Below, piece after piece: positions 1 through 12,100 of a stretch of 12,100 nucleotides of DNA. Below the pieces are notes generated by a model, which was not told the origin of the DNA, ran no database searches, and saw only the letters and a list, made by a program, of their open reading frames with translations. Source of the stretch: Oscillospiraceae bacterium (GTDB lineage: Bacteria > Bacillota_A > Clostridia > Oscillospirales > Oscillospiraceae); NCBI GenBank assembly GCA_017516785.1, contig JAFXAV010000013.1, positions 1 through 12,100 on the forward strand, in the 5' to 3' direction. Position numbers and translations under genes: made by a program. Positions within the stretch are counted from its first letter, which is position 1; every line of letters begins with the position of its first letter.

Positions 1-140
1 CTCGCCGTAAGGCGAGACGGAGGGAGTGTCCTATCGACTTTACGACACTCCCCCAGTCAAAAATCAAAGATTTTTGCCAGCCCCCTCAGGGAGGGGGCCA
101 AGGGTGGCTTCGACACCAAACACCTCGACAAACTGCAATT
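1..140 (+). repeat. Left copy of a 140-bp multi-hairpin repeat (terminal inverted repeat)
   Basis: Every base from 1 to 140 matches the reverse complement of 12099 to 11960; identity stops at 141. Four hairpins lie in series: 1-6 with 11-16 (loop GTAA), 22-30 with 44-52 (stem GGGAGTGTC), 58-65 with 69-76 (stem CAAAAATC, loop AAA), and 80-87 with 91-98 (stem GCCCCCTC, loop AGG). Positions 99-140 show no strong hairpin. There is no open reading frame of note inside. It resembles the short dispersed intergenic repeats of gut Clostridia (inference). Because the window starts inside or at the edge of the element, its true outer boundary is unknown. Confidence 0.93.
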
Positions 141-181
141 TGTCTTGATCATTACCTTACACAGAATTCACATTTCCTTCA

Positions 182-209
182 TTGTGTTTTATTGGAAAGC
201 GGGTATAAT
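182..209 (+). promoter_or_regulatory. Probable sigma-A promoter of the HD-domain gene
   Basis: A perfect -10 box TATAAT lies at 204-209. The best -35 candidate is TTGTGT at 182-187, with a 16-bp spacer; it matches only the first three consensus bases, so the -35 is weak. The gene start lies about 34 bp downstream of the -10, with GGAGG at 230-234. The 141-242 interval is AT-rich and otherwise holds nothing recognisable. Confidence 0.6.
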
Positions 210-242
210 AAAGGAAATGACTGACAAGAGGAGGTACATGAT

Positions 243-899
243 ATGACCTATGAATATATTAAGAATCACCCGGAAGTGAAGGCACTGCTGGAAAAGGGAA
301 ACCGAAATCTGGGTGTCCTCGGCTTTACCGACCACTCCATGGCCCACACTGCCCTGGTTGCGGACCGGGCGGCCTATATCTTAAGAACGCTGGGTTATTC
401 CGAGCATGAGCAGGAACTGGCGAAGATTGCAGGTGTGATGCATGACATCGGCAATGCCATCAACCGTACCCATCACGCGGAGTGGGGCGCGATGCTGGCA
501 AACGACATTCTAAAGGCCACCGATATGTCCATTGAGGACCGGCTGACCATCGTCAGCGCCATCGGCAATCACGACGAATCCACCGGCGGAGCCAAGGATG
601 CGGTGTCCGCCGCCCTGATCCTTGCGGACAAGTCTGACGTGCGCCAGAACCGTGTCCGGGAGCGGGATAAGGAAAAGTTCGACATCCACGACCGGGTAAA
701 CTACGCCGTCACCGGCCACAGCCTGAAGGTGGATGCGGCGGAGAAAAAGATCGCCCTGAATCTGCAGGTCGATGAAAGCATCTGCACCATGTATGAGTAT
801 TTCGACATTTTCCTGGGCCGCATGATGATGTGCCGCGGGGCTGCGGAGATGCTGGGAGCCAAGTTCCGCCTCACCGTCAACGGCGGCAAGGTGCTGTAA
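243..899 (+). CDS. HD-domain metal-dependent phosphohydrolase
   Basis: This is a 218-residue cytoplasmic protein of the HD superfamily. The metal-binding pattern is visible: His35 in DHSMAHT, the His67-Asp68 doublet in VMHDIGN, His77-His78, His110 in GNHDES, and Asp129 in LADKSD. The order H...HD...H...H...D is that of phosphohydrolases acting on nucleotides or other phosphomonoesters; the substrate cannot be told from sequence. The C-terminal part (about 145-218) is a family-specific extension with no signal peptide or membrane segment. ATG 243 is chosen because GGAGG at 230-234 is correctly spaced; the nearer ATG at 238 is followed by a stop after one codon. It has its own promoter. The next gene's promoter begins five bases after the stop, so the two genes need not be co-regulated. 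The family assignment is firm; the role is unknown. Confidence 0.88.
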   Translation: MTYEYIKNHPEVKALLEKGNRNLGVLGFTDHSMAHTALVADRAAYILRTLGYSEHEQELAKIAGVMHDIGNAINRTHHAEWGAMLANDILKATDMSIEDRLTIVSAIGNHDESTGGAKDAVSAALILADKSDVRQNRVRERDKEKFDIHDRVNYAVTGHSLKVDAAEKKIALNLQVDESICTMYEYFDIFLGRMMMCRGAAEMLGAKFRLTVNGGKVL

Positions 900-903
900 T
901 GCC

Positions 904-932
904 TTGACTTTTTCCTGCGGGAATGATATGTT
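904..932 (+). promoter_or_regulatory. Sigma-A promoter of the trigger-factor-like gene
   Basis: TTGACT at 904-909 (five of six consensus) is followed by a 17-bp spacer and TATGTT at 927-932 (four of six). A TGA directly before the -10 at 924-926 gives an extended -10 TGn motif. It starts five bases after the stop of the HD gene and lies about 38 bp upstream of the start codon at 970. Confidence 0.7.
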
Positions 933-969
933 GAAGGGACTGAAAAATAGAAAACCAAGGAGAAATACC

Positions 970-1914
970 ATGAGCTTTACTTATCGGGGCTTGAAGGCCC
1001 TTCAGGATCGTCACATTGTGACCGCTGAGGAAATTGAACAGCAGATGGAGCGCCTGCAGCAGCAGACCCCCAAGATTACCGTCATCACCGACCGCCCCGC
1101 ACAGATGGGCGATGAAGTCGTTCTGGACTTCGCTGGCTTCTGCGACGGCGAGCAGTTTGCAGGCGGCACCGCTCAGAATCACACTCTGGTGCTGGGCAGC
1201 GGCATGTTCATCCCCGGCTTCGAAGAGCAGCTGGCAGGCAAGAATCTGGAAGAGGAAGTCATTGTCAAGGTGACCTTCCCTGAAAAGTACACTCCCGAGC
1301 TTGCCGGCAAGGACGCTGAGTTCCGTTGTGTGATGCACCAGATCCGCGTCAAGACTGCCTACGAACTGGACGACACCTTTGCACAGGAAGTGGGCGGCTG
1401 CGCAACCTATGTGGAAATGTGCGAGAAGATGGGCCAGAGCCTCCAGGCTTATGTGGACGAGCGGGGCGAGATGGACCTGCAGGACCGTCTGCTGCGCCAG
1501 GCTGCGGCATCTCTGGAGCTGGAGATCACCGAAGAGCAGCTGAAGGCAGGCGTGGAAGAGCAGATGCAGGTGCTGGAGGCGCAGCTGGCTCAGCAGGGCC
1601 TGAACCTGGATATGTACTGCAAGTTCATGAACATCACCCGGGAAGACATCCGGGAAGAGGCCGTTCCCGCTGCCCGGGATGCCATCCGCACCCAGGCTGC
1701 CGTGGACAAGATCGTGGAGCTGGAAGGCCTGAAGGCTGAGGAAAGCGATCTGCAGGAAGCCTATGCCGTCATCGCCCGCCAGAACGGTATCACCATGGAG
1801 CAGCTGAAGCCCCACATGGATGAGCAGTTCAAGGCTACCGTGGCCCGCAGCGTTCTGATGAGCAAGGTTATGCGCCTGATCCGGGACTCCGCTGAGATCA
1901 CGGAATCTGTCTGA
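970..1914 (+). CDS. Trigger-factor-like FKBP-type peptidyl-prolyl isomerase/chaperone lacking the ribosome-binding domain
   Basis: This 314-residue protein aligns by eye with the middle and C-terminal parts of trigger factor. Residues 5-45 resemble the linker before the PPIase domain (YRGLKAL, then DRPAQMGDEV). Residues 46-128 are an FKBP domain with GDEVVLDFAG, LGSGMFIPGFEEQL (75-88), VTFPEKY (101-107) and LAGKDAEF (111-118). Residues 130-305 are helical and match the chaperone arms (ELDDTFAQEV). The roughly 110-residue N-domain that docks on the ribosome in full-length trigger factor (about 430 residues) is absent. ATG 970 is preferred because AAGGAG at 957-962 is well spaced; a longer reading from TTG 904 would translate through the promoter. 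No signal peptide is seen, so it probably acts in the cytoplasm. It is probably a specialised paralogue rather than the housekeeping tig product. Confidence 0.85.
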   Translation: MSFTYRGLKALQDRHIVTAEEIEQQMERLQQQTPKITVITDRPAQMGDEVVLDFAGFCDGEQFAGGTAQNHTLVLGSGMFIPGFEEQLAGKNLEEEVIVKVTFPEKYTPELAGKDAEFRCVMHQIRVKTAYELDDTFAQEVGGCATYVEMCEKMGQSLQAYVDERGEMDLQDRLLRQAAASLELEITEEQLKAGVEEQMQVLEAQLAQQGLNLDMYCKFMNITREDIREEAVPAARDAIRTQAAVDKIVELEGLKAEESDLQEAYAVIARQNGITMEQLKPHMDEQFKATVARSVLMSKVMRLIRDSAEITESV

Positions 1915-1924
1915 TTATATCGAT

Positions 1925-1968
1925 AAAAAAGTCCGCAGCGTTTTTCTGCAGCTGCGGACTTTTTCTTT
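1925..1968 (+). terminator. Factor-independent terminator after the trigger-factor-like gene
   Basis: A 9-bp perfect GC-rich stem pairs GTCCGCAGC (1931-1939) with GCTGCGGAC (1951-1959) around an 11-base loop. It is preceded by six A (1925-1930) and followed by TTTTT at 1960-1964. The A and T tracts can extend the stem and would also allow termination from the opposite strand. Confidence 0.92.
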
Positions 1969-1998
1969 GTCAAAATCTGCTAAACGGCTTGTTTTGTG

Positions 1999-2027
1999 TT
2001 GACTTACAGTAGTTTTTCGGTTACAAT
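1999..2027 (+). promoter_or_regulatory. Sigma-A promoter of the fhs-fchA-folD operon
   Basis: TTGACT at 1999-2004 and TACAAT at 2022-2027 each match five of six consensus bases and are separated by exactly 17 bp. The predicted transcript start near 2034 leaves a leader of only about 45 nt before ATG 2079. That is too short for a tetrahydrofolate or ZTP riboswitch, so constitutive or repressor-type control is more likely (inference). Confidence 0.82.
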
Positions 2028-2078
2028 TTCTATGCTTTTATGCAACGCAATTTCCCTGAATCAGGAGGTACACTTACT

Positions 2079-3887
2079 ATGGCAATTGAGTTTGTTAATG
2101 GCAAGTATGAAGATAAAAACGGCCGGGTCGTATTGGACCCCACCGTCTATAAGGACTGGCAGATTGCCGAGGAAGCAGAGAAGAATCTGCCCCCTGTGGA
2201 CCACTTCCGTGAGAAGCTGGGTCTGCTGCCCGAAGAAATCATCCCCTACGGCAAGACCCCCAAAATTGACTTTATCAAGGTCATGAACCGCCTGAAGGAC
2301 AAGCCTGACGGCAAGTTCATTGAGGTCACTGCCATCACCCCCACCCCCTTCGGCGAGGGTAAGTCCACCGTTTCCCTGGGCCTGATTGAAGGCCTGGGCT
2401 ATATCGGCAAGAACGTCGGCGGCGCTCTGCGTCAGCCCTCCGGCGGCCCCACCATGAACGTCAAAGGTACCGCAGCAGGCGGCGGCAACGCCCTGCTGAT
2501 GCCCATGACCGAGTTCTCCCTGGGCCTCACCGGCGATATCAACGACATCATGAATGCCCACAATCTGGCCATGGTCGCCCTGACCTCCCGGATGCAGCAC
2601 GAGCGGAACAATTCTGACGAGTGGCTGGCAAGCCGCGGCCTGAAGCGTCTGGATATCGACCCCAAGCGCATCGAGATGGGATGGGTTATGGACTTCTGCG
2701 CTCAGAGCCTGAGAAACATCATCATCGGCATCGGCGGAAGACTGGACGGCTACATGATGGAAAGCAAGTTCGGCATCGCCGTCGGTTCTGAGCTGATGGC
2801 AATCCTGGCCGTTGCCAAGGATCTGAAGGATCTGAGAGAGCGCATCGGCAACATCGTGGTTGCCTACTCCCGTTCCGGCAAGCCTGTTACCTGTGAGGAC
2901 CTGGATGTGGCCGGCGCTATGGCTGCCTGGATGAGAAACACCATCAACCCCACCATCTGCTACAGCGTGGAGCATCAGCCTGTGCTGATCCATGCAGGTC
3001 CCTTTGCGAACATCGCCATCGGCCAGTCTTCCGTCATCGCCGACCGTCTGGGCCTGAAGCTCTTTGATTACCATGTCACCGAGTCCGGCTTTGCCGCTGA
3101 CATCGGCTTTGAGAAGTTCTGGAACGTCAAGACCCGCCTGTCCGGTCTGACCCCCAATGTTTCTGTTCTGGTTGCCACCGTTCGGGCCCTGAAGATGCAC
3201 GGCGGCGGCCCCAAGGTCACTCCCGGCGCACCTCTGCCCAAGGAATATACCGAGGAGAATCTGGAACTGCTGGAAAAGGGTACATGCAACCTGTTCCACC
3301 ATGTGAATACCATCAAGAAGTCCGGTATCAACCCTGTGGTCTGCATCAACCGGTTCTATACCGATACCGATGCGGAAGTTGCCCTCATCAAGAAGCTCTG
3401 CGCAGAGCGGGGTATCCGCTGCGCGGAAAGCAATCACTGGCGCTACGGCGGCGAAGGCGCTGAAGAGCTGGCAAGAGTGGTTGTGGAAGCCTGTGAGGAT
3501 CCCGTGGAGGTCAAGTTCCTCTATGATCTGGAAATGCCCCTGCGCCAGCGGGTGGAACTGATTGCAAAGGAAGTCTACGGCGCTGACGGCGTGGACTGGG
3601 CTCCTCTGGCGGTTGAGAAGGCAAAGCGCTTCGAGTCCGATCCCAAGTATGCTGACTACTGCACCATGATGGTTAAAACCCATCTGTCACTCAGCGACGA
3701 CCCCACCAAGAAGGGTGTGCCCTCTGGCTGGCGTCTGAGCGTCCGGGATATTCTGGAATACGGCGGCGCAAAGTTCCTGTGCCCCATGGCCGGCACCATC
3801 TCCATGATGCCCGGCACCGCCGCAAACCCCGCTTACCGCCGGGTGGATATCGATACCGAAACCGGTAAAGTTTCCGGTTTGTTCTGA
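2079..3887 (+). CDS. fhs: Formate-tetrahydrofolate ligase (10-formyl-THF synthetase)
   Basis: This 602-residue cytoplasmic enzyme joins formate to tetrahydrofolate with ATP, giving 10-formyl-THF. The P-loop is TPFGEGKST (89-97), where most family members have GEGKTT. Other family blocks are ALRQPSGGP (116-124), GTAAGGG (130-136), [14 protein letters not shown] (305-318), [14 protein letters not shown] (334-347) and the C-terminal MPGTA...SGLF. The RQPS and [11 protein letters not shown] variants differ from the commoner REPS and PFANIAHGCNS forms, which places it in a divergent FTHFS branch; at 602 residues it is also longer than the usual 555-560. ATG 2079 is chosen because AGGAGGT (2063-2069) lies at proper distance; an in-frame upstream ATG at 2040 has no ribosome site. 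It is the first gene of the operon and feeds fchA and folD. No acetyl-CoA pathway gene is present, so it may serve biosynthesis or formate assimilation. Confidence 0.96.
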
Positions 3888-3894
3888 TTTTTTG

Positions 3895-3920
3895 GGCACA
3901 GGCAGGTAACTGCCTGTGCC
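3895..3920 (+). other. Perfect 11-bp hairpin with GTAA loop between fhs and fchA
   Basis: GGCACAGGCAG (3895-3905) pairs perfectly with CTGCCTGTGCC (3910-3920) around GTAA, which would be a GNRA tetraloop in the + strand RNA. No T-run follows on either strand, so it is not a standard terminator. It begins 7 bases after the fhs stop and ends 28 bases before the fchA start. It could protect or process the mRNA to set the ratio of fhs to downstream products (inference). Confidence 0.8.
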
Positions 3921-3948
3921 AATTTACTTGTATAAAGGAGCAATTCCT

Positions 3949-4569
3949 ATGGATATGACAATGGAATCCTGCCGCACCTTTGTGGAGGTGCTGGCATCTT
4001 CCGCTCCCGCTCCCGGCGGCGGCGGAGCCGCTGCCCTGGTTGGTGCAATCGGCACCGCTCTGGGCAACATGGTGGGGTCTCTCACTGTTGGTAAGAAGAA
4101 GTATGCTGCAGTAGAGGAAGAGATTATCGCTCTGAAGGCAAAATGCGATTGCTTACAGACCGAGCTTCTGGACCAGGTGGAGGCGGATGAGGTGAATTTC
4201 CTGCCCCTTGCCAAGGCTTACGGTATCTCCAAGGATGACCCCGGCCGGGCACAGATTATGGAAGAGGCTACCGTTCTCGCCTGCGCCACTCCCATGCATA
4301 TTATGGAGCTGTGCTGCGAGTCAATCGAGGCAATTAAAGTTTTTGCCGAAAAGGGCAGCCGTCTGGCGGTTTCCGATGCCGGATGCGGCGCGGTGCTGTG
4401 CAAGGCAGCGCTCCAGGCAGCATCCCTGAATGTGTTCATCAACACCAAGACCCTTAAAAATAAGGAAGTGGCTAAGGAAATGAACGCCAAGGCGCTGGGT
4501 ATGATGGAAAAATACTGCCCCCTGGCGGATGAAATTTTCGCCAGTGTCCGGGACGGCTTCTTTATGTGA
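3949..4569 (+). CDS. fchA: Methenyltetrahydrofolate cyclohydrolase (cyclodeaminase/cyclohydrolase family)
   Basis: This 206-residue cytoplasmic protein is of the formiminotransferase-cyclodeaminase C-terminal (FTCD_C) family. Stand-alone members catalyse interconversion of 5,10-methenyl-THF and 10-formyl-THF. Family blocks are visible: APAPGGGGAAALVGAIG (19-35), MVGSLTVGKKKY (41-52), VEADEVNFLPLAKAYG (77-92) and SDAGCGAVL...LNVFINTKTLKN (142-171). ATG 3949 is chosen because AAAGGAG (3934-3940) is correctly spaced; a GTG at 3916 in the same frame lies inside the intergenic hairpin. It lies 61 bp after fhs and 17 bp before folD in one operon. The family also includes glutamate formiminotransferase-linked cyclodeaminases, but the neighbours, without any histidine-degradation gene, favour the cyclohydrolase role. 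The FolD encoded next appears to lack cyclohydrolase residues, which makes this the likely sole source of that activity in the cassette. Confidence 0.9.
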   Translation: MDMTMESCRTFVEVLASSAPAPGGGGAAALVGAIGTALGNMVGSLTVGKKKYAAVEEEIIALKAKCDCLQTELLDQVEADEVNFLPLAKAYGISKDDPGRAQIMEEATVLACATPMHIMELCCESIEAIKVFAEKGSRLAVSDAGCGAVLCKAALQAASLNVFINTKTLKNKEVAKEMNAKALGMMEKYCPLADEIFASVRDGFFM

Positions 4570-4586
4570 TTTTGGAGGAGAAGAAA

Positions 4587-5459
4587 ATGGCTAAACTGCT
4601 GCTGGGCAAGGAAGTTACCGATGCCCTGAACTTAAATCTGCAGGAGCGCACTGCTGCACTCCGTGAAAAGGGTGTTGTTCCCACTCTCGGCATCATTCGG
4701 GTAGGCGAGGACCCTTCCGACCTGAGCTATGAAAAAGGCGCCACCAAGCGGGCAGAGCTGGTGGGCGTGGAGATCAAGAAGTTCGAGCTGAGTGCTGAGG
4801 CAACCAAGGAAGAACTGCTGGCTGTGATTGATCAGGTCAACGCCGATGACAGTATCCATGGCGTGCTGCTGTTCCGGCCCCTGCCGGAGGCTCTGAGAGC
4901 TGACAGCAATGAAATCTGCAATCGCCTGGACCCCAAAAAGGATGTGGACTGCATGACCCATCTGAGTAACGCCGGTGTTTTCGAGGGGCTGGGACTGGGC
5001 TATGCTCCCTGTACTCCTGCGGCCTGCATGGAAATTCTCGACTACTACGGCATTGACTGCACCGGTAAGAATGCGGTCATTATTGGACGCAGTCTGGTGG
5101 TGGGTAAGCCCGCTGCCATGATGCTGATGGGCAAGAACGCAACCGTCACCGTCTGTCATACCAAGACGGTAAACACCGCTGAAATCTGCCGGAAGGCGGA
5201 CATCATCATTTCTGCTGCCGGTGTTCTGAATTCTCTGAATGCCGACTTCGTCCGGCCCGGTCAGGTGGTCATCGACGTTTCCATGAACTGGAATCCCGAA
5301 AAGATCACCGCCAAGGGCAAGGGCGGCATGTCCGGCGACGCAGCCTTCGAGGAAGTGGAGAAAATCGTGGATGCCATCACCCCCGTGCCCGGCGGCGTCG
5401 GCGCGGTGACAACCTCTGTGCTGATGAAGCACGTGGTGGAGGCTGCAGAGAAGGCCTGA
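4587..5459 (+). CDS. folD: FolD-family methylenetetrahydrofolate dehydrogenase, probably without cyclohydrolase activity
   Basis: This 290-residue FolD protein has the expected length. The N-terminal catalytic domain has Tyr48 and the KDVD motif (118-121, with catalytic Asp121). The NADP-binding domain has GRSLVVGKPAAMML (167-180), and the C-terminal signature is PGGVGAVT (268-275), a variant of PGGVGPMT. An ungapped alignment of GEDPSDLSY...LVGVE (40-62) with the classical motif places Ala52 where the catalytic Lys lies (human MTHFD1 Lys56, E. coli YxxxK). Phe96 in LLFRPLP replaces the Gln of VQLPLP. In human MTHFD1 these residues are needed for the cyclohydrolase step, so I infer a dehydrogenase-only enzyme partnered by FchA. 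ATG 4587 follows GGAGG (4574-4578); a TTG-type start further upstream would overlap fchA. Its stop overlaps the next ATG (ATGA), indicating translational coupling. Confidence 0.93.
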   Translation: MAKLLLGKEVTDALNLNLQERTAALREKGVVPTLGIIRVGEDPSDLSYEKGATKRAELVGVEIKKFELSAEATKEELLAVIDQVNADDSIHGVLLFRPLPEALRADSNEICNRLDPKKDVDCMTHLSNAGVFEGLGLGYAPCTPAACMEILDYYGIDCTGKNAVIIGRSLVVGKPAAMMLMGKNATVTVCHTKTVNTAEICRKADIIISAAGVLNSLNADFVRPGQVVIDVSMNWNPEKITAKGKGGMSGDAAFEEVEKIVDAITPVPGGVGAVTTSVLMKHVVEAAEKA

Positions 5460-6763
5460 TGAACAGATTTAAAAACCTCTCCGAATCCGCCTTTCTGAAG
5501 TTGTTTTTCGCCTTTCTGTCAGTCTGCTTTCTGGTTGCGGCGTTGTGCATGCCGGACCGGGGAAGCATGCTTTCGGGACTCTGGGCGATTCTCAGCAGCC
5601 CCGGAAAGATTTCCACCAACTATTTCGCTCTGGGCGGCTTTGCGGCCACTTTCCTGAATATGGGCCTCGTGGGACTGTGCTGCCTGCTGATTCTGGCGAA
5701 AGCAAAAGCAAACAATGTGTCAACCTTTGCGTTCATCCTGACGGTGGGTTTCAGCTCCTGGGGTATCAATATCATCAATATCTGGCCCACGGTGCTGGGC
5801 GTTGTGGTTTACTTCATGGTGAAAAAGGAGAAGTTCAGCGGGAATGCCAATGCGATGCTGTTTTCCACCGGCATTGCGCCGCTGATTTCCGACCTTCTGG
5901 TGCGGTATCCCCATACTGAGGTGGTAGGCTTCAATCTGCCGGGACTGGTTGTAACCCTGGTCGTGGGTGTGTTTATCGGATTTATGCTTCCGGCAGGTCT
6001 GACTCACGCGCCGAAGGTACATAAGGGTTTCGACCTCTATTCTGCAGCGGTTCCCGTGTGTTTGATGGCATTTTTCCTGAACGCCACGTTATACAAAACT
6101 CTGGGTGTGGAACTTCCTGCAGCTCCCGGCGCTGAGACCCTGCAGATTGCATCCCGCGAAGTTGTGAATCTGTTCTGCATCGCGGTTTTCGGCCTGTGCA
6201 TACTCTTTGCGCTGGCGCTGGGATGCAAGCCGAAGGATTATTGGCGATTACTAAATGCGAAAGAGCATGTGAGCAGTGTGACGGGTGCTTGCGGAAGGGG
6301 CGTATTCCTGATGAATGCGGGCGTTTTCGGCCTGTTCATTTTGTCCTACTACAATATCATCGGTGCCACTTTCAACGGCATTACTTTTGGCATCATCTTC
6401 TGCATGCTCTGCACCTGCAATTCCGGCTCCCATCCGGGCAATGTCTGGCCCATTATGGCGGGCTACGCCCTGACTTCTCTGGTTTTTGGATGGCTCAGCA
6501 ATCTAGCAGGCGGCAATTTTGTCATGGCTCTCAACGCCCAGGCAATCGCTGTGGGACTGTGCTTTGCCAACGGCCTCAGTCCTGTGGCAAGCAAGTACGG
6601 CTGGTTCTGGGGCATCGTGGCGGGTGGTATGCACTATCTGCTGGTGACTTCCGTCCCCAATCTGCACGGCGGCTTCTGCGTTTACAACGGCGGCTTTACT
6701 GCCGCGGTGATCTGCGTGATTCTGATTCCCGTGCTGGAACGTTTTTATAAAACAGAAGAATAA
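5459..6763 (+). CDS. Polytopic membrane protein, DUF1576-like, first of two paralogues
   Basis: This 434-residue protein is strongly hydrophobic, with about ten to twelve membrane segments. The clearest are 11-31, 55-80, 103-121, 160-180, 194-212, 234-255, 281-303, 329-347, 383-400 and 412-426. I assign it from memory, tentatively, to DUF1576, a Firmicutes membrane family without known function. Striking conserved blocks are NIWPTVLG (107-114), GSHPGNVWPIMAGY (323-336), NGLSPVASKYGW (371-382) and two HxGFxxY motifs (188-194 and 403-409). The halves appear related, as in many transporters with internal pseudo-symmetry. The ATG at 5459 shares bases with the folD stop, so the gene is translationally coupled to the folate operon; no separate ribosome site is obvious. 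A terminator overlaps its stop codon. A role in moving a small solute linked to one-carbon metabolism is a guess. Confidence 0.8.
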   Translation: MNRFKNLSESAFLKLFFAFLSVCFLVAALCMPDRGSMLSGLWAILSSPGKISTNYFALGGFAATFLNMGLVGLCCLLILAKAKANNVSTFAFILTVGFSSWGINIINIWPTVLGVVVYFMVKKEKFSGNANAMLFSTGIAPLISDLLVRYPHTEVVGFNLPGLVVTLVVGVFIGFMLPAGLTHAPKVHKGFDLYSAAVPVCLMAFFLNATLYKTLGVELPAAPGAETLQIASREVVNLFCIAVFGLCILFALALGCKPKDYWRLLNAKEHVSSVTGACGRGVFLMNAGVFGLFILSYYNIIGATFNGITFGIIFCMLCTCNSGSHPGNVWPIMAGYALTSLVFGWLSNLAGGNFVMALNAQAIAVGLCFANGLSPVASKYGWFWGIVAGGMHYLLVTSVPNLHGGFCVYNGGFTAAVICVILIPVLERFYKTEE

Positions 6764-6790
6764 AAAGACCGGCTCAGGCCGGTCTTTTTT
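6763..6790 (+). terminator. Terminator of the fhs-fchA-folD-membrane protein operon
   Basis: GACCGGC (6767-6773) pairs with GCCGGTC (6778-6784) around loop TCAG, followed by six T (6785-6790). The five A before the stem (6762-6766) pair with the T-run and overlap the TAA stop. It separates the two membrane paralogues transcriptionally. Confidence 0.93.
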
Positions 6791-6792
6791 AG

Positions 6793-6821
6793 TGGACAAG
6801 GGCGGGAAATTGTGGTTTAAT
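6793..6821 (+). promoter_or_regulatory. Promoter of the second membrane paralogue
   Basis: TGGACA (6793-6798) and TTTAAT (6816-6821) each match five of six consensus bases with a 17-bp spacer. It starts three bases after the T-run of the preceding terminator. An alternative -10, TATGAT, lies at 6823-6828 but would need a 24-bp spacer from this -35. Confidence 0.72.
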
Positions 6822-6850
6822 ATATGATAGTTAATTATTGGCAAAGACCC

Positions 6851-6866
6851 GGGAGGGGATATTTTG
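6851..6866 (+). promoter_or_regulatory. Ribosome binding site that decides a TTG start
   Basis: GGGAGGGG at 6851-6858 ends five bases before TTG 6864. The next in-frame ATG at 6891 has no Shine-Dalgarno sequence upstream (CAGAAGTATCAGAAGT precedes it). Protein alignment with the paralogue would tolerate either start. Confidence 0.7.
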
Positions 6867-8225
6867 AAAATCATCAGAAGTATCAGAAGTATGAAGGACC
6901 TGTCTGAAAAAGAATTTCTGACACTGTTTTTCACTGGCTTCAGCACCAGTTTCCTGGTGGCGGCATTGTTTATGCCTGACTGGCAGGATATTCTGCCGGG
7001 CCTGCTGAGAATTCTCAGCCAGCCGACGAAGGGTTCCACCAATTTCTTTTCCGTGGGCGGCTATGCGGCTACCTTCTTTAACATGGGCCTGGTGGGTCTG
7101 ATCTGCACCGCCATGTACATCATTCCCGGCGAAAAACCCAACCATGCGGCAACTCTGGTGACCATCCTGACCACCGGATTCGGCTCCTGGGGCATCCATA
7201 TCCTGAATATGTGGCCCACCATGCTGGGCGTGATGCTCCACGCGGTGGTGCGCCGGGAAAAGTTGGGCGACCACACCAACCAGATGCTGTTCTCCACGGG
7301 TCTTGCTCCCTTTATGTCCGAGCTGATGGTCCGCTATCCCAATCCGGAAGTGACCGGATTTTCTCTTCCCGGTGTGGCGATTGCCTTTGCGGTGGGTATC
7401 ACGGTGGGCTTTTTCCTGCCTGCGGGTCTTTCAAACTCCCCGACGGTTCACAAGGGTTTTGACCTCTACTCCGCAGCCCTGCCTGTTGGCATGACTGCAT
7501 TTCTCTTGCAGGGATTTTTGTACCGGGCATCGGGTATCCCTGTGCCGGATGCGGTGTCCGATTTGTCGGTATCCTCCTGGACCATAGCAAACACCTTCTG
7601 CATCATCCTGTTTTCCAGCTGCGTTATCATCGCCTTTATCATGGGTTGCGGCCCGAAGGAGTACTGGAAGCTAATGAGCGACCCGGAGCCGGTGGTGAAT
7701 TTCTCTGCTACCTACGGCAATGCCACCATGCTGATGAACGTGGGCCTTTACGGCTTCTTCATTCTGGCCTACTATAACATCATTGGTGCAGAGTTCAACG
7801 GCGTTACCTTCGGCGTCATGTTCTGTATGCTCTCCACCTGCAATGCAGGCTCCCATCCCGCCAACGTCTGGCCCATCACCCTGGGCTACGGCCTGGCATC
7901 CATGCTTTTCCAGTTGCTGGCTGTGTTCACCGGCGGCGAGTTTACCCAGTATCTGCACTCCCAGGCCATCATCGTTGGCCTGTGCTATGCCAATGGTCTC
8001 AGCCCCATCGGCGACAAGTACGGCTGGCGCTATGGCCTGGTGGCGGCTATGATGCATTTCTGCATGGTTACCACCGTGCCGGAGCTCCACGGCTCCATGT
8101 GCCTGTATAACGGCGGCTTCACAGCAGCCCTGGTTTGCCTGCTGATGATTCCGGGTCTGGAACGGAATTTCAAGACCAAGCTGGAACGCCGGGCAGCAAG
8201 AGCTCTGGCAAAAGAGAATAAATGA
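6864..8225 (+). CDS. Polytopic membrane protein, DUF1576-like, second paralogue
   Basis: This 453-residue protein is co-linear with the preceding membrane protein; about half of the residues appear identical by eye. Shared blocks are GGYAATFFNMGLVGL (65-79), FGSWGIHILNMWPTMLG (106-122), MLFSTGLAPFMSELMVRYP (141-159), HKGFDLYSAA (196-205), NAGSHPANVWPITLGYG (327-343), YANGLSPIGDKYGW (375-388) and LYNGGFTAA (414-422). It has the same ten to twelve predicted membrane segments, plus a short basic C-terminal tail (about 434-453, ERRAARALAKENK) absent from the paralogue. The start is TTG 6864, supported by GGGAGGGG. It has its own promoter and terminator, so it can be expressed separately from the folate operon. 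Function is unknown; tandem duplication suggests either a hetero-oligomer or different substrates. Confidence 0.8.
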   Translation: MKIIRSIRSMKDLSEKEFLTLFFTGFSTSFLVAALFMPDWQDILPGLLRILSQPTKGSTNFFSVGGYAATFFNMGLVGLICTAMYIIPGEKPNHAATLVTILTTGFGSWGIHILNMWPTMLGVMLHAVVRREKLGDHTNQMLFSTGLAPFMSELMVRYPNPEVTGFSLPGVAIAFAVGITVGFFLPAGLSNSPTVHKGFDLYSAALPVGMTAFLLQGFLYRASGIPVPDAVSDLSVSSWTIANTFCIILFSSCVIIAFIMGCGPKEYWKLMSDPEPVVNFSATYGNATMLMNVGLYGFFILAYYNIIGAEFNGVTFGVMFCMLSTCNAGSHPANVWPITLGYGLASMLFQLLAVFTGGEFTQYLHSQAIIVGLCYANGLSPIGDKYGWRYGLVAAMMHFCMVTTVPELHGSMCLYNGGFTAALVCLLMIPGLERNFKTKLERRAARALAKENK

Positions 8226-8231
8226 ACGAGT

Positions 8232-8268
8232 CCCCCGACGGTGAAAGCCGCTCGGGGGTCTTTCGTTT
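8232..8268 (+). terminator. First terminator after the second membrane paralogue
   Basis: CCCCCGA (8232-8238) pairs with TCGGGGG (8252-8258). An inner CGG (8239-8241) pairs with CCG (8248-8250), with one bulged C at 8251. A short interrupted T-rich tail TCTTTCGTTT follows. The structure starts six bases after the stop codon. Confidence 0.82.
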
Positions 8269-8272
8269 CTAC

Positions 8273-8300
8273 AGTTGCACCTTTGGGTGCAACTTTTTTT
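8273..8300 (+). terminator. Second tandem terminator, host/phage boundary
   Basis: GTTGCACC (8274-8281) pairs perfectly with GGTGCAAC (8286-8293) around TTTG, followed by seven T (8294-8300). It lies directly after the previous terminator and 34 bases before the first phage gene, so the phage genes are insulated from upstream transcription. No promoter is recognisable between here and 8335. Confidence 0.93.
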
Positions 8301-8334
8301 GTTTCCGGGGGTTCGGATGAAAAGGAGGAGAGCT

Positions 8335-8655
8335 ATGGACCGGAAAACGGGAGAGAAACAGCTGAAAGAACGAATCAAGACCGGGAAAATTTCCAGGTCG
8401 GATGTGACACGGCGGCTGGCTGAGCTGGCCTTCGGGAAGGCCAATGACTGCGTGCGGCTTGCTCTGGAGGATGAGCCGAATCTGGGACGGCTGGATTTGA
8501 GCCTGCTCAGCGAGGTCAAGCGCAACGACAAGGGGACAGTGGAAATCAAGCTCATCGACAGGCTGCGGGCCCTGGAGCAGCTGGCTCAGGTGGCAGGGGA
8601 AGAATCAGAGGATCTGGACCTGTTCCTGCGGGCTCTGGGCGGTGGGGAGGATTGA
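8335..8655 (+). CDS. Putative phage terminase small subunit
   Basis: This 106-residue, charged, soluble protein lies immediately upstream of the large terminase and overlaps it by four bases. Small terminase subunits recognise the packaging site on phage DNA and recruit the large subunit. The N-terminal half (RIKTGKISRSDVTRRLAELA, about 14-33) could form a DNA-binding helical region. The C-terminal part, EIKLIDRLRALEQLAQVAG (65-83), resembles the amphipathic oligomerisation helix common in these proteins. ATG 8335 is chosen because AAGGAGGAG (8322-8330) precedes it; an in-frame ATG at 8317 would place that site inside the gene. Sequence similarity is too weak by eye for a firm family call; position is the main evidence. 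Confidence 0.7.
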   Translation: MDRKTGEKQLKERIKTGKISRSDVTRRLAELAFGKANDCVRLALEDEPNLGRLDLSLLSEVKRNDKGTVEIKLIDRLRALEQLAQVAGEESEDLDLFLRALGGGED

Positions 8656-9920
8656 ACTACAGTAGATTTTCCCCGAAGCAGCGGACAGTACTGACCTGGT
8701 GGATACCGGGAAGCGAATATGAAGGGAAGGAAGCCATCGTCTGTGACGGTGCGGTACGGTCTGGGAAGACCCTCGCCATGGGGCTGTCCTTTTTTCTCTG
8801 GGCTATGCTCAGCTTCGACGGTCAGCGTTTTGGTGTCTGCGGCAAGACCATCGAGTCTCTGCGGCGAAATGTTTTGTCAGAGATTCTGCCGAAGCTGAAA
8901 AAGCTAGGGTTTCAGTGGAAGGAGAAGCGGTCGGAAAATTTGGTGACTATTCGTTTTCATGGCCGTGAAAATCGGTTCTACATCTTCGGCGGACGAGATG
9001 AAAGTTCTGCAAGTCTCATTCAGGGCATCACCTTTGCGGGGATTCTGCTGGATGAGGTGGCGCTGATGCCCCAGTCTTTTGTGGAGCAGGCCTGTGCCAG
9101 ATGTTCCGTAACCGGAAGTAGGCTCTGGTTCAACTGCAATCCCGCAGGGCCCACTCACTGGTTTTACAAGGCATGGATTCAGGAGGCACAGCAACGAAAC
9201 TGTCTGCGGCTTCACTTTACCATGGAGGACAATCCCTCTCTGTCACCTGCCATCCGTGAGCGGTACCAGCGGCTGTACACCGGCGTTTTCTACCGCAGGT
9301 TTATCCTTGGGGAGTGGGCCCAGGCGGAGGGCCGTGTCTACGACTTCTTTGGGCCGGAGATGGTGCAGCCGGTGCCGAAGGGGGACTTCGAAAAGTGGTA
9401 CGTTTCCTGCGACTACGGCACGGTGAATCCCACCTCCATGGGCCTCTGGGGACTGCAGAAGGGAATTTGGTACCGGGTGAAGGAGTTCTATTTCAGTTCC
9501 CGGACTGCTATGCGGCAGATGACCGATGAGGAATATGCGGGGGAGCTTCAGAAGCTGGCAGGGGAGCGGAGGCTCAGCGCCGTGATTGTGGACCCCTCGG
9601 CGGCAAGTTTTATTGAAGTGCTTCGCAGAAAGGGATTTCCTGTCCAGAAGGCGGAAAACGATGTGCTGTCCGGCATCCGGCTCACTTCCGATGCCCTGAA
9701 GGAGGGACGGATCGTTGTCTGCCAGGGATGCAGCGACTGCATCCGGGAGATGGATGAGTACGTCTGGGATTTAGGGAGCAGCGCCAGGGACCGGGTAAAA
9801 AAGGAGCATGACCACGCCATGGACGATATGCGCTATTTCGTGGCGACGGTGCTGGGGAAACGGGATACAGGCTTCACCGCCTGCACGGTGGAGCGAAGAA
9901 GAAAGGAGCGATTGAAATGA
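8652..9920 (+). CDS. terL: Phage terminase large subunit (PBSX/Terminase_3-like)
   Basis: This 422-residue ATPase-nuclease translocates and cuts phage DNA at the portal. Walker A is GAVRSGKT (33-40). Walker B is ILLDEVALM (131-139, Asp134-Glu135). The coupling motif is FNCNP (160-164). The nuclease domain begins near 250 with Asp254 in SCDYG, Asp314 in IVDPSAASF, and the final acidic cluster around 387-392 in DHAMDDMRY. Length is normal for the PBSX group. The start is taken as TTG 8652, overlapping the upstream TGA; FSPKQRTVL at 6-14 matches the usual N-terminal adenine-contact region, so little can be missing. GGGGAGG (8644-8650) is very close to this TTG, so initiation probably relies on coupling. 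The gene ends with an ATGA overlap into the portal gene. Assignment is firm. Confidence 0.93.
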   Translation: MNYSRFSPKQRTVLTWWIPGSEYEGKEAIVCDGAVRSGKTLAMGLSFFLWAMLSFDGQRFGVCGKTIESLRRNVLSEILPKLKKLGFQWKEKRSENLVTIRFHGRENRFYIFGGRDESSASLIQGITFAGILLDEVALMPQSFVEQACARCSVTGSRLWFNCNPAGPTHWFYKAWIQEAQQRNCLRLHFTMEDNPSLSPAIRERYQRLYTGVFYRRFILGEWAQAEGRVYDFFGPEMVQPVPKGDFEKWYVSCDYGTVNPTSMGLWGLQKGIWYRVKEFYFSSRTAMRQMTDEEYAGELQKLAGERRLSAVIVDPSAASFIEVLRRKGFPVQKAENDVLSGIRLTSDALKEGRIVVCQGCSDCIREMDEYVWDLGSSARDRVKKEHDHAMDDMRYFVATVLGKRDTGFTACTVERRRKERLK

Positions 9921-11056
9921 GATGGAAGAAGAAGGAAGCGGCGCCTGTGGCGGCTGTTTGTCAGCTCCGGGGCGGCAGAACCCATCCTTTCGGGGCGCTG
10001 CGGGGCTATGTACCCTTAAGCACCGGAGAGGAGCGGATGTACCGGGAGATGCGGGAGGCGATTCCGGTTCTCGATGCGGCGGTGGGCAAGCTGGTTCGGC
10101 TCAGTGGCGGTTTTCAGGCGGAATGCCAAAATCCGAAAGCCCAGGAAAAGCTGAATGAGTTTCTGCGGAGTGTCCCCTGTGGGAGAGGGCAGTTCGGCAT
10201 AAACAATTTTCTGGCGGGGTATTTAGACAGCCTTTTGACCTACGGCAGAGCCGTGGGGGAGATGGTTGTTGCAGGCGGCAAGCTTCGGGCGGTGTGCTGG
10301 GGGGATGTGACCGCACTGGAAATCGAAGAGGGGGATTCTCCTCTGGAAATGGTGATCTGGGGGCCTGATGACCACGGGATGCTGCGGCCCCTGCCCTATC
10401 AGCAGCTGCTGCTTTTCACCACCATGAATCCGGAGCCGGGCAGTCCCTACGGTGTCAGCATGTTCCGGGGGATGCCCTTCCTGGCGGATATTCTGATGAA
10501 AATCTACGAGACCGTCGGCACCAACTGGGAGCGGGCGGGAAATGTCCGCTACAGCGTCATCTGCAAGGGTGATGATCTGGATGCGGCCGTTGCCCAGGAG
10601 CGAACCAAAGCCATCGCTTCCGAGTGGTCCCGGGCCATGGAGGAAGGGAAAAACGGCACTGTCCGGGACTTTGTGGCTGTGGGCGATGTGGAGATCAAGG
10701 TTATCGGCGGGGAAAGTCCCATTCTGGATTCCGAAGTGCCGGTGCGGCAGATTCTGGAGCAGCTGGTGTCCAAGACCGGTCTGCCCCCGTTCCTGTTGGG
10801 CCTGAACTGGACCACCACGGAACGGATGAGCGCACAGCAGGCGGATATTCTGACCAGCGAACTCTGGGCCATTCGCCGGACGGTGCAGCCTGCCCTGGAG
10901 CGGGTGTGCAAACTCTATCTGGCGCTGGAGGGCCTTGACAACCGGGTGGAGATTATTTGGGATGACATCAGTCTGCAGGATATTACCGAGGAGGCCAGGG
11001 CAGATCTTTATCGTGCCCAGGCTGAAAAATACCGCAGGGAAGCACAGGGAGGTTAA
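9917..11056 (+). CDS. Phage portal protein
   Basis: This 379-residue protein would form the dodecameric ring at the capsid vertex through which DNA is packed. Recognisable portal features are the N-terminal REAIPVLDAAVGKLVRL (46-62), the NFLAGYLDSLLTYGRAVGEM region (97-116), FTTMNPEPGSPYGVSMFRG (167-185), the clip-side EILEQL-like segment and the SKTGLPPFLLGLNWTTTERMSAQQAD block (285-310), which matches the gLPP.LLG...t...n pattern of HK97-type portals. The C-terminal helix (about 360-377) is charged. ATG 9917 overlaps the terL stop and follows AAAGGAG (9902-9908). Length is in the normal range. Two bases separate it from the protease gene. Position after terL and before the protease makes the call firm; the exact portal subfamily is not certain. 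Confidence 0.9.
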   Translation: MRWKKKEAAPVAAVCQLRGGRTHPFGALRGYVPLSTGEERMYREMREAIPVLDAAVGKLVRLSGGFQAECQNPKAQEKLNEFLRSVPCGRGQFGINNFLAGYLDSLLTYGRAVGEMVVAGGKLRAVCWGDVTALEIEEGDSPLEMVIWGPDDHGMLRPLPYQQLLLFTTMNPEPGSPYGVSMFRGMPFLADILMKIYETVGTNWERAGNVRYSVICKGDDLDAAVAQERTKAIASEWSRAMEEGKNGTVRDFVAVGDVEIKVIGGESPILDSEVPVRQILEQLVSKTGLPPFLLGLNWTTTERMSAQQADILTSELWAIRRTVQPALERVCKLYLALEGLDNRVEIIWDDISLQDITEEARADLYRAQAEKYRREAQGG

Positions 11057-11058
11057 GT

Positions 11059-11955
11059 ATGGAAATCAAAAAAGCAACGGAAATCAAAACCGGCGGGGTG
11101 CCTACGGCAGCGCAGCTGGAAGCCATCAATGTCCACGCAAAGGCAAAACTCAGTGCAGAGCAGGTCTATGTCTTTTCTCTGAGACTCTGTGATGATTCTG
11201 TAGACCGGGACGGGGAGCGGTTTGACACCGCTGCGCTGCCGGTTCTTGCCAGACTCTTCATCGGCAAGACCGGCATTGTGGATCACCGGTGGAGCGCCGA
11301 GAATCAGGTGGCCCGGATTTTTGAGACTCAGGTGGTGCAGGAGGATCGGGTCAGCTATATCAAGGCCTGGGCCTATATCCGCCGTGGCGGCGCCAATGAG
11401 GAGATCATCGCGGATATCGAGGCAGGGATCAAGAAGGAAGTATCTGTCGGCTGCGCCATGGGGCGGGCAGTTTGCTCCGTCTGCGGCAGCGACTACGGCA
11501 CCTGCGGACATATGAAGGGCGAGCATTACGATGGGCAGCTTTGCTGCGCCATTCTGAAAGAGCCTATGGATGCCTACGAATTTTCTTTCGTGGCGGTGCC
11601 AGCCCAGCCCAATGCTGGGGTGCTGAAGGGTCTCGGCGGCGGGAAGCGGAGCCTGAAGGAGCTGGCTGACGAATTCGGCGCCCAGGGGGAATATCGGGCG
11701 CTTTTCAAGGATGCCCAGCTGGGGCGGCAGTATGCTTCCCAGATCCGGGATGATGTGGTGCGGCTGTGCCTGAGTCTGGAACTGGGGGCAGAGGAACCGG
11801 TTCTGCGTTCCATCGTGAATACTGCGGGGGCAGAGGATCTTCTGAAGCTGAAGGCGGCTCTTGAAAACCGTCTGGCAGAAAGCCTGCCCATGGTGACCCA
11901 GCTGAGCGGCAGCTTTACGAGGGGCGAAGCAATCGAAAGCGGGTTTATGATCTGA
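11059..11955 (+). CDS. Phage prohead maturation protease with a Cys-rich insert
   Basis: This 298-residue protein fits the herpesvirus/HK97-type prohead serine protease fold, which trims scaffold and capsid proteins before DNA packing. Likely catalytic residues are His76 (IVDHRWS), Ser129 (KKEVSVGCAM) and an acidic residue near Glu174 (YEFSFVAVPAQPNAGV). Between Ser129 and that block is an insert C139-x2-C142-x6-C149-x1-H151, followed by C162 and C163, which looks able to bind a metal. The C-terminal region (195-298) is helical and charged and may act as scaffold, as in fused protease-scaffold genes. GGGAGG (11047-11052) precedes ATG 11059. The frame is intact to TGA 11953-11955. Only four bases separate the stop from the right repeat, and no capsid gene follows in the window. 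Confidence 0.85.
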   Translation: MEIKKATEIKTGGVPTAAQLEAINVHAKAKLSAEQVYVFSLRLCDDSVDRDGERFDTAALPVLARLFIGKTGIVDHRWSAENQVARIFETQVVQEDRVSYIKAWAYIRRGGANEEIIADIEAGIKKEVSVGCAMGRAVCSVCGSDYGTCGHMKGEHYDGQLCCAILKEPMDAYEFSFVAVPAQPNAGVLKGLGGGKRSLKELADEFGAQGEYRALFKDAQLGRQYASQIRDDVVRLCLSLELGAEEPVLRSIVNTAGAEDLLKLKAALENRLAESLPMVTQLSGSFTRGEAIESGFMI

Positions 11956-11959
11956 GGGG

Positions 11960-12099
11960 AATTGCAGTTTGTCGAGGTGTTTGGTGTCGAAGCCACCCTT
12001 GGCCCCCTCCCTGAGGGGGCTGGCAAAAATCTTTGATTTTTGACTGGGGGAGTGTCGTAAAGTCGATAGGACACTCCCTCCGTCTCGCCTTACGGCGAG
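11960..12099 (-). repeat. Right copy of the 140-bp multi-hairpin repeat, inverted
   Basis: This is the exact reverse complement of 1-140, with all four hairpins preserved and no mismatch seen. It starts four bases after the prohead protease stop and runs to the last base but one of the window. The extra C at 12100 is one base beyond the left copy, so the element or its host context continues outside the window. Because both copies sit at the very ends, a break of the assembly at a repeat is as likely as a functional paired terminus. Confidence 0.93.
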
Positions 12100-12100
12100 C

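Follow-up and report, generated by a model that had tools for sequence, protein, structure and literature searches.

The analysed DNA (hereafter the window) is a stretch of 12,100 nucleotides from an Oscillospiraceae bacterium (NCBI GenBank assembly GCA_017516785.1, contig JAFXAV010000013.1, positions 1 to 12,100 of the forward strand), in which the folate genes fhs, fchA and folD are directly followed by DUF1576-A, a gene for a membrane protein of the family DUF1576 (PF07613). We consider it fairly probable that DUF1576-A represents a new family of channels for formate (formic acid), which is unrelated in sequence to FocA/FNT, and that it feeds the formate--tetrahydrofolate ligase Fhs. Transport as such, formate as the substrate and the import direction were inferred from (i) the conserved operon, (ii) the riboswitch found upstream of many orthologues, (iii) the repeated exchange with FNT genes and (iv) the scarcity of FNT in genomes with folate-linked DUF1576, which together point to formate passage for the synthesis of 10-formyl-tetrahydrofolate (10-formyl-THF). 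Formate would enter the cell via DUF1576-A and be converted by Fhs to 10-formyl-THF, which FchA and FolD would interconvert. DUF1576-A would be translated from the end of the fhs-fchA-folD mRNA with a start codon sharing a base with the folD stop codon, and in many relatives a ZTP riboswitch of its own would turn DUF1576 on once ZMP/ZTP reports that 10-formyl-THF is running short.

The entry of formate into folate metabolism is known to proceed via FocA-type channels or by diffusion. If true, the proposal would provide a second, unrelated family of formate channels, many of whose members are controlled by ZTP. The formyl-THF regulon would gain a transport step, and a family whose name states only that its function is unknown would acquire a role. 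The proposal would also suggest a way in which bacteria, most of them without a full-strength pyruvate formate-lyase match, may supply purine synthesis with outside formate. The features of the locus are as follows:

1999..2027, forward strand: promoter-like site TTGACT-17-TACAAT upstream of fhs (consensus match only)
2079..3887, forward strand: fhs, formate--tetrahydrofolate ligase (PF01268, E 1.6e-217; NF010032 above cut-off)
3949..4569, forward strand: fchA-like methenyl-THF cyclohydrolase gene (FTCD_C; PF04961, E 1.5e-56)
4587..5459, forward strand: folD, methylene-THF dehydrogenase/cyclohydrolase (PF02882, E 2.4e-52; PF00763, E 9.6e-30)
5457..5461, forward strand: TGATG, with one base common to the folD stop and the DUF1576-A start
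5459..6763, forward strand: DUF1576-A (gene A), proposed formate channel of 434 amino acids (PF07613, E 3.9e-67, two repeats)
6762..6789, forward strand: intrinsic-terminator-like hairpin at the end of gene A (12-pair stem, then a T run read from the forward strand; the computed site list gives this near-palindrome on the reverse strand)
6793..6821, forward strand: promoter-like TGGACA-17-TTTAAT upstream of gene B (spotted by eye; absent from the computed site list)
6864..8225, forward strand: DUF1576-B (gene B), tandem paralogue of 453 amino acids with a TTG start (PF07613, E 1.5e-65)

A preliminary description of this DNA, made from its letters, had placed two paralogous DUF1576-like proteins behind fhs-fchA-folD. 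Both proteins are genuine family members (225.7 and 220.5 bits against a gathering cut-off of 25, two Pfam repeat copies each) with 54% mutual identity, and Pfam confirmed the three folate genes in the same order and on the same strand directly upstream of gene A; the fchA-like protein scored 161 bits with NF045657, under that model's cut-off of 275. The four-base ATGA overlap described between folD and DUF1576-A proved to be an overlap of one base. Likewise, the tie to the folate operon stood for gene A, whereas gene B lies behind the hairpin at 6762-6789, which was calculated at -19.0 kcal/mol compared with -7.3 for shuffled sequences (z -5.2). Given the promoter-like site upstream of fhs and the terminator-like hairpin ending gene A, fhs-fchA-folD-DUF1576A is likely to form one transcription unit, and DUF1576-B is probably read as a separate one. 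DUF1576-B falls into a sub-clade of tandem copies (one branch of six rows, the others in L002, L005, L006, L015 and L051) and may be a second channel, with a related or a changed use.

The link with folate genes was examined in the best 80 of 182 relatives in the genome collection (L036 and L049 being from one genome), of which 52 locus records were labelled Oscillospiraceae or Faecousia; genes in GC-rich loci were called with a codon-score caller. In 39/80 loci, folD was located on the strand of DUF1576 and at most 700 bases upstream of it, and in 42/80 our R1 model detected a ZTP riboswitch within 600 bases upstream; both occurred in 13 and at least one in 68. Because of these numbers in other genomes, the association of DUF1576 with folD and the riboswitch is not due to chance. 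Twelve loci had neither, four of them with less than 500 bases upstream (L019, L026, L048, L075), six that keep fhs and/or folD in the locus (L030, L034, L041 on the other strand, L042, L062, L063), and two without fhs or folD in the locus (L046, L066). The neighbourhood survey of DUF1576 homologues proposed by the preliminary description was thus positive among these relatives, whereas fhs, fchA, folD and FNT were found by tblastn in 0/34 DUF1576 regions from elsewhere in the phylum, and fhs, fchA and folD in 0/12 regions with other DUF1576 types from the window's own family. The folate clade is a single branch in a tree of 95 rows (SH-aLRT 100), and the DUF1576-folate link is restricted to this one monophyletic clade of uncultured Clostridia. 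The suggestion of a membrane partner of formyl-THF metabolism, with formate as one candidate, accordingly holds in that the linkage recurs, ZTP riboswitches accompany it and FNT takes the same position; it applies to one clade, and the substrate is our inference.

Two kinds of fhs, 88-95% or 42-44% identical to the window's fhs, were observed at the same operon position (L012, L018, L023, L025, L029 and others), while fchA and folD in those loci stay closer to the window copies, which suggests that fhs may have been replaced within the operon in some relatives. Fourteen of the 80 loci have, directly 5' of DUF1576, a gene from a single cluster (Na_H_Exchanger by Pfam in L013), and three have it directly 3'; loci with this cluster include L007, L009, L010, L013, L033, L036 and L076.

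The R1 model was built from eight hits exceeding Rfam's own gathering score. Direct scanning of 38 loci with Rfam RF01750 returned ZTP riboswitches 5' of DUF1576 in 26, namely in 8/19 loci chosen without regard to R1 and in 8/9 and 10/10 loci chosen for their R1 hits; these 19 R1-positive loci were picked from 34 that had not been scanned before, and L020 (R1 41.5 bits) was the sole R1-picked locus without Rfam confirmation. An R1 hit precedes the trigger-factor/fhs operon in L024, L028, L073, L074 and L076, with a second one before DUF1576 in L024 and L076. In five loci (L044, L053, L054, L055, L057) purE and DUF1576 are divergent and each has an R1 hit (purE assigned by cluster and Pfam-checked in L057). 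ZTP hits stand directly upstream of DUF1576 even where fhs, fchA and folD were not found in the locus (L007-L010, L044, L053-L055), which makes the link one of regulation and not of position alone. No RF01750 hit was obtained in the window at the gathering score, nor any up to E 10 in positions 1800-8400, and the best R1 match in the window reached 14.5 bits across 15 bases. Near other DUF1576 types no riboswitch was found at gathering in 34 sources, and R1 at E <0.01 returned no ZTP riboswitch in the 34 rest-of-phylum regions or in the 12 other-type regions of the window's family.

The pfl/ZTP RNA has been described ahead of purH, fhs, pfl, glyA, folD and other genes for purine and THF enzymes, and DUF1576 occurs 0 times in that paper's main text (PMC2864571); binding of ZMP/ZTP is described as turning expression on under folate stress (PMC7337938). 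The DUF1576 orthologues resemble this regulon in their upstream riboswitch; they differ from its described members, which are enzymes, in that a channel would be added, and the window copy is without a riboswitch. An FTHFS RNA (RF02981) was observed directly 5' of fhs in two folate-clade loci (L025 6194-6308 and L063 987-1086).

The substrate is suggested by what occupies the same operon position elsewhere. In G523, a genome without a DUF1576 match, the gene order is fhs-fchA-folD-FNT, and the FNT gene (L175 6420-7244; PF01226, 7.3e-66) holds the position that DUF1576 has in its kin. We examined 61 FNT loci, which comprised 59 of the 65 FNT-bearing genomes in a 120-genome sample of the family (G427 twice) and G376; the remaining six genomes were judged by contig coordinates only. 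In nine loci (L175, L203, L205, L216, L217, L219, L238, L240, L249) the gene directly after folD, on its strand, was FNT, and in two (L245, L246) FNT came after fchA. By contig coordinates, folD matches were present in 116/120 genomes of the family sample; the gene behind folD is FNT in 9 genomes and DUF1576 in 14, with a DUF1576 fragment in that place in G427. In a folD+fchA tree of 61 rows the FNT operon of G523 was sister to the DUF1576 operon L029 (support 89/94, not starred), that of G492 to L186 (100/84) and that of G495 to L184 (99/97). The starred branches require at least four changes of label between DUF1576 and FNT; the other seven FNT rows are on long branches placed apart, which leaves the exact number of changes unsure. 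Ten of the FNTs were nearer to FocA than to NirC among the curated models yet scored under the cut-offs, which leaves nitrite or hydrosulphide as conceivable substrates for them. A published survey of FNT neighbourhoods names pfl, nirBD, fdh and asr, and folate or fhs is absent from its main text (PMC5525234). Since DUF1576 and FNT exchange places in one operon slot, the question of the substrate lends itself to a direct test. THF riboswitches (RF01831) were observed near FNT (in L245 near folD) in six of twelve FNT-type loci scanned (L203, L205, L238, L245, L246, L249).

DUF1576 of the folate type and FNT also rarely share a genome. In the family sample, DUF1576 directly follows folD in 15 genomes, one of which has FNT (G427), compared with 64 FNT-bearing genomes among the other 105 (Fisher 1.1e-4, phylogeny-blind). 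The 24 family genomes with other DUF1576 types only showed no clear exclusion (13 with FNT, against 51 of the 81 without DUF1576). Among 60 relatives of genome G001, FNT was present in 0/33 with folate-type DUF1576, and the other 27 included 11 with FNT over the cut-off and one with a fragment. With both samples pooled, FNT occurred in 1/46 folate-type genomes, G001 and G450 being common to the two. The folate type was set by sequence and synteny, except in G001, G008 and G450, where loci L001 and L062 and the position next to folD decided the call, not the sequence comparison. G426 and G503 were excluded, as were the intermediate proteins of G409 and G570, which do not adjoin folD; G427 (DUF1576 fragment, FNT present) was counted as folate-type, and adding G570 or G409 would add FNT-free genomes. 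The E-value of the second Pfam repeat was rejected as a rule for the folate type, since it was wrong for G426 and G503 and missed the G427 fragment.

The structure of DUF1576-A was modelled and compared with known transporter folds, as the preliminary description had advised. The model is a confident membrane-protein model (pLDDT 94.6) whose predicted fold is nearest to Amt, urea transporters (UT) and RnfD, with ammonium and urea transporters as the top structural matches; an earlier model from 14 close sequences (pLDDT 62.7) was left out of the fold search. FocA was absent among the structural matches listed (Foldseek, VIA-align), which says nothing firm about an FNT fold. Pfam rows for gene A up to E 1 contained PF07613 alone and no PF01226, ammonium or urea transporter family, and sequence searches of the PDB yielded no relative of the DUF1576 protein and none for the A2 profile up to E 10. 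Amt/Mep/Rh channels have a twin-histidine pair in the pore; in DUF1576, histidines H188, H392 and H403 are conserved at the level of sequence. No paper naming DUF1576, PF07613 or IPR011470 was found in a literature search that had most subscription journals outside its reach.

Because of the ammonium and urea transporters among its nearest structural matches, the folate-clade DUF1576 might instead be a channel for another small one-carbon or nitrogen solute (ammonium/ammonia, urea or formamide, for example). The name of the FTCD_C family, to which fchA belongs, moreover refers to formimino-THF cyclodeaminase, an enzyme that releases ammonia. We regard this alternative as rather unlikely, since it leaves unexplained both the FNT in the same position of related operons and the near-exclusion of DUF1576 and FNT between genomes. 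The likeness to these transporters also has its limits: Amt/Mep/Rh proteins share about 8-12% identity with DUF1576-A over the aligned part, give no Pfam match and occur in another gene context, with PII as the partner of Amt and a GHKL-like protein as that of DUF1576; urea transporters (SLC14) give no Pfam match, TM values of 0.31-0.44 and a urea instead of a folate context. FNT/FocA resembles DUF1576 in that some relatives have it in the place behind folD in their fhs-fchA-folD operons, and DUF1576 would be expected to move formate likewise. It differs in that no window protein matches PF01226 and in that FocA is a pentamer, with curated models of 268-285 amino acids, compared with the 434 amino acids and two repeats of DUF1576-A.

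Pyruvate formate-lyase was the one formate source covered by our survey. A full-strength match (E <1e-195, a threshold chosen by us) was present in 2/33 folate-type relatives of G001 compared with 13/27 others, and any pyruvate formate-lyase-like match, including other glycyl-radical enzymes, in 10/33 compared with 18/27. The few full-strength matches indicate that most of these cells probably obtain the formate for Fhs from their surroundings. Fhs is reversible, and a formate channel could also serve export if Fhs ran in reverse to make ATP from 10-formyl-THF and the channel removed the formate; FocA itself is described as passing formate both ways. Export appears improbable to us, as ZTP riboswitches turn genes on under folate stress, which fits import, and as 31/33 relatives have no full-strength pyruvate formate-lyase match (eight of these 31 with weaker matches of this kind), so that outside formate would be useful.

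Two further alternatives to a formate channel have very little probability. A redox- or sodium-linked membrane subunit like RnfD/NqrB, which would be no solute channel, leaves the FNT exchange unexplained and is at odds with a scan, covering ten window proteins and not the 80 loci, that turned up no Rnf/Nqr domain. That DUF1576 is a mere operon passenger in one lineage, without a metabolic link, would agree with the monophyly of the clade, by which the linkage counts are not independent, and conflicts with the ZTP hits upstream of DUF1576 in loci without the folate genes.

In a sample of the phylum, PF07613 matched at E <=0.001 in 38/398 genomes, 34 of them full-length, and 34 regions (3.7 to 17 kb) from 33 such genomes were compared; their DUF1576 proteins are 24-37% identical to the window protein. 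A gene for a small GHKL-ATPase-like protein of about 115 amino acids lies downstream of DUF1576 in 21 of these regions (among L137-L170). Six such proteins were scanned, of which two matched HATPase_c and HATPase_c_3 (best 5e-12) and four no HATPase model; in an alignment of 20, judged by eye, the ATP-binding boxes are kept in 12 and seemingly lost in eight, and the consensus stretch PRRDELEEYYGxLAG is recognisable in most. With up to 11 candidates scored per genome, full-length GHKL matches (E 3.3e-29 or better) were obtained in 21/398 genomes, all of them DUF1576 genomes with the match adjoining DUF1576. No full-length GHKL gene was found in 11 window-clade genomes, which gave three partial matches (E 1.8e-4 to 7.0e-4) inside open reading frames of 629-662 amino acids, and none is directly downstream in the window, where gene A is followed by gene B and then by a terminase small subunit gene.

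It is possible, though we hold it only tentatively, that the whole DUF1576 family consists of small-solute channels of the Amt/UT fold, many of them gated by dedicated stand-alone GHKL-ATPase-like subunits as AmtB is by GlnK, and that the folate branch lost this partner, was drawn into the ZTP/folate regulon and turned to formate import in place of FocA. The exclusive occurrence of full-length GHKL at DUF1576 loci and its presence in 21/34 regions speak for this view; its absence from the 12 other-type regions of the window's family and from 13/34 phylum regions counts against it. Four differences set the folate clade apart from the other types when matched positions are compared (K103 to I, K324 to S, N195 to S, N407 to C). 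They argue for a selectivity of its own in the folate branch and against extending its proposed function to the whole family. In L253 5087-8245 (G504, outside the folate clade), a DUF1576 of another type was observed about 0.9 kb upstream of a folD that is 38% identical to the window's folD. In another branch, DUF1576 follows a nusA-infB-rbfA-truB-ribF row, which was Pfam-checked in L178 only; L179-L182 have gene rows of similar sizes.

The remaining features of the window are as follows:

243-899: HD-domain gene
about 970-1914: trigger-factor-like gene, in which the N-terminal part of the family model is absent
about 1945-1958: hairpin ahead of the promoter-like site of fhs
8273..8294, forward strand: terminator-like hairpin 3' of gene B

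The alignment of the trigger-factor-like gene is confined to tig model positions 110-409, and the ribosome-binding N-terminal part seems to be missing. Similar genes (called at 314-398 amino acids) lie 5' of fhs in some relatives, in five of them behind a ZTP hit.

Positions 8275-12100, close 3' of gene B, encode phage terminase small and large subunits, a portal protein and one more phage family, so a prophage or its remnant adjoins the locus. As the right end of the window is phage-like, a viral origin of DUF1576 was considered and rejected: 71 pattern matches were obtained in viral contigs, none encoding a DUF1576 relative. Nine phage records match parts of 8275-12100, eight of which are listed at 64-72% identity, seven of those from human faecal samples.

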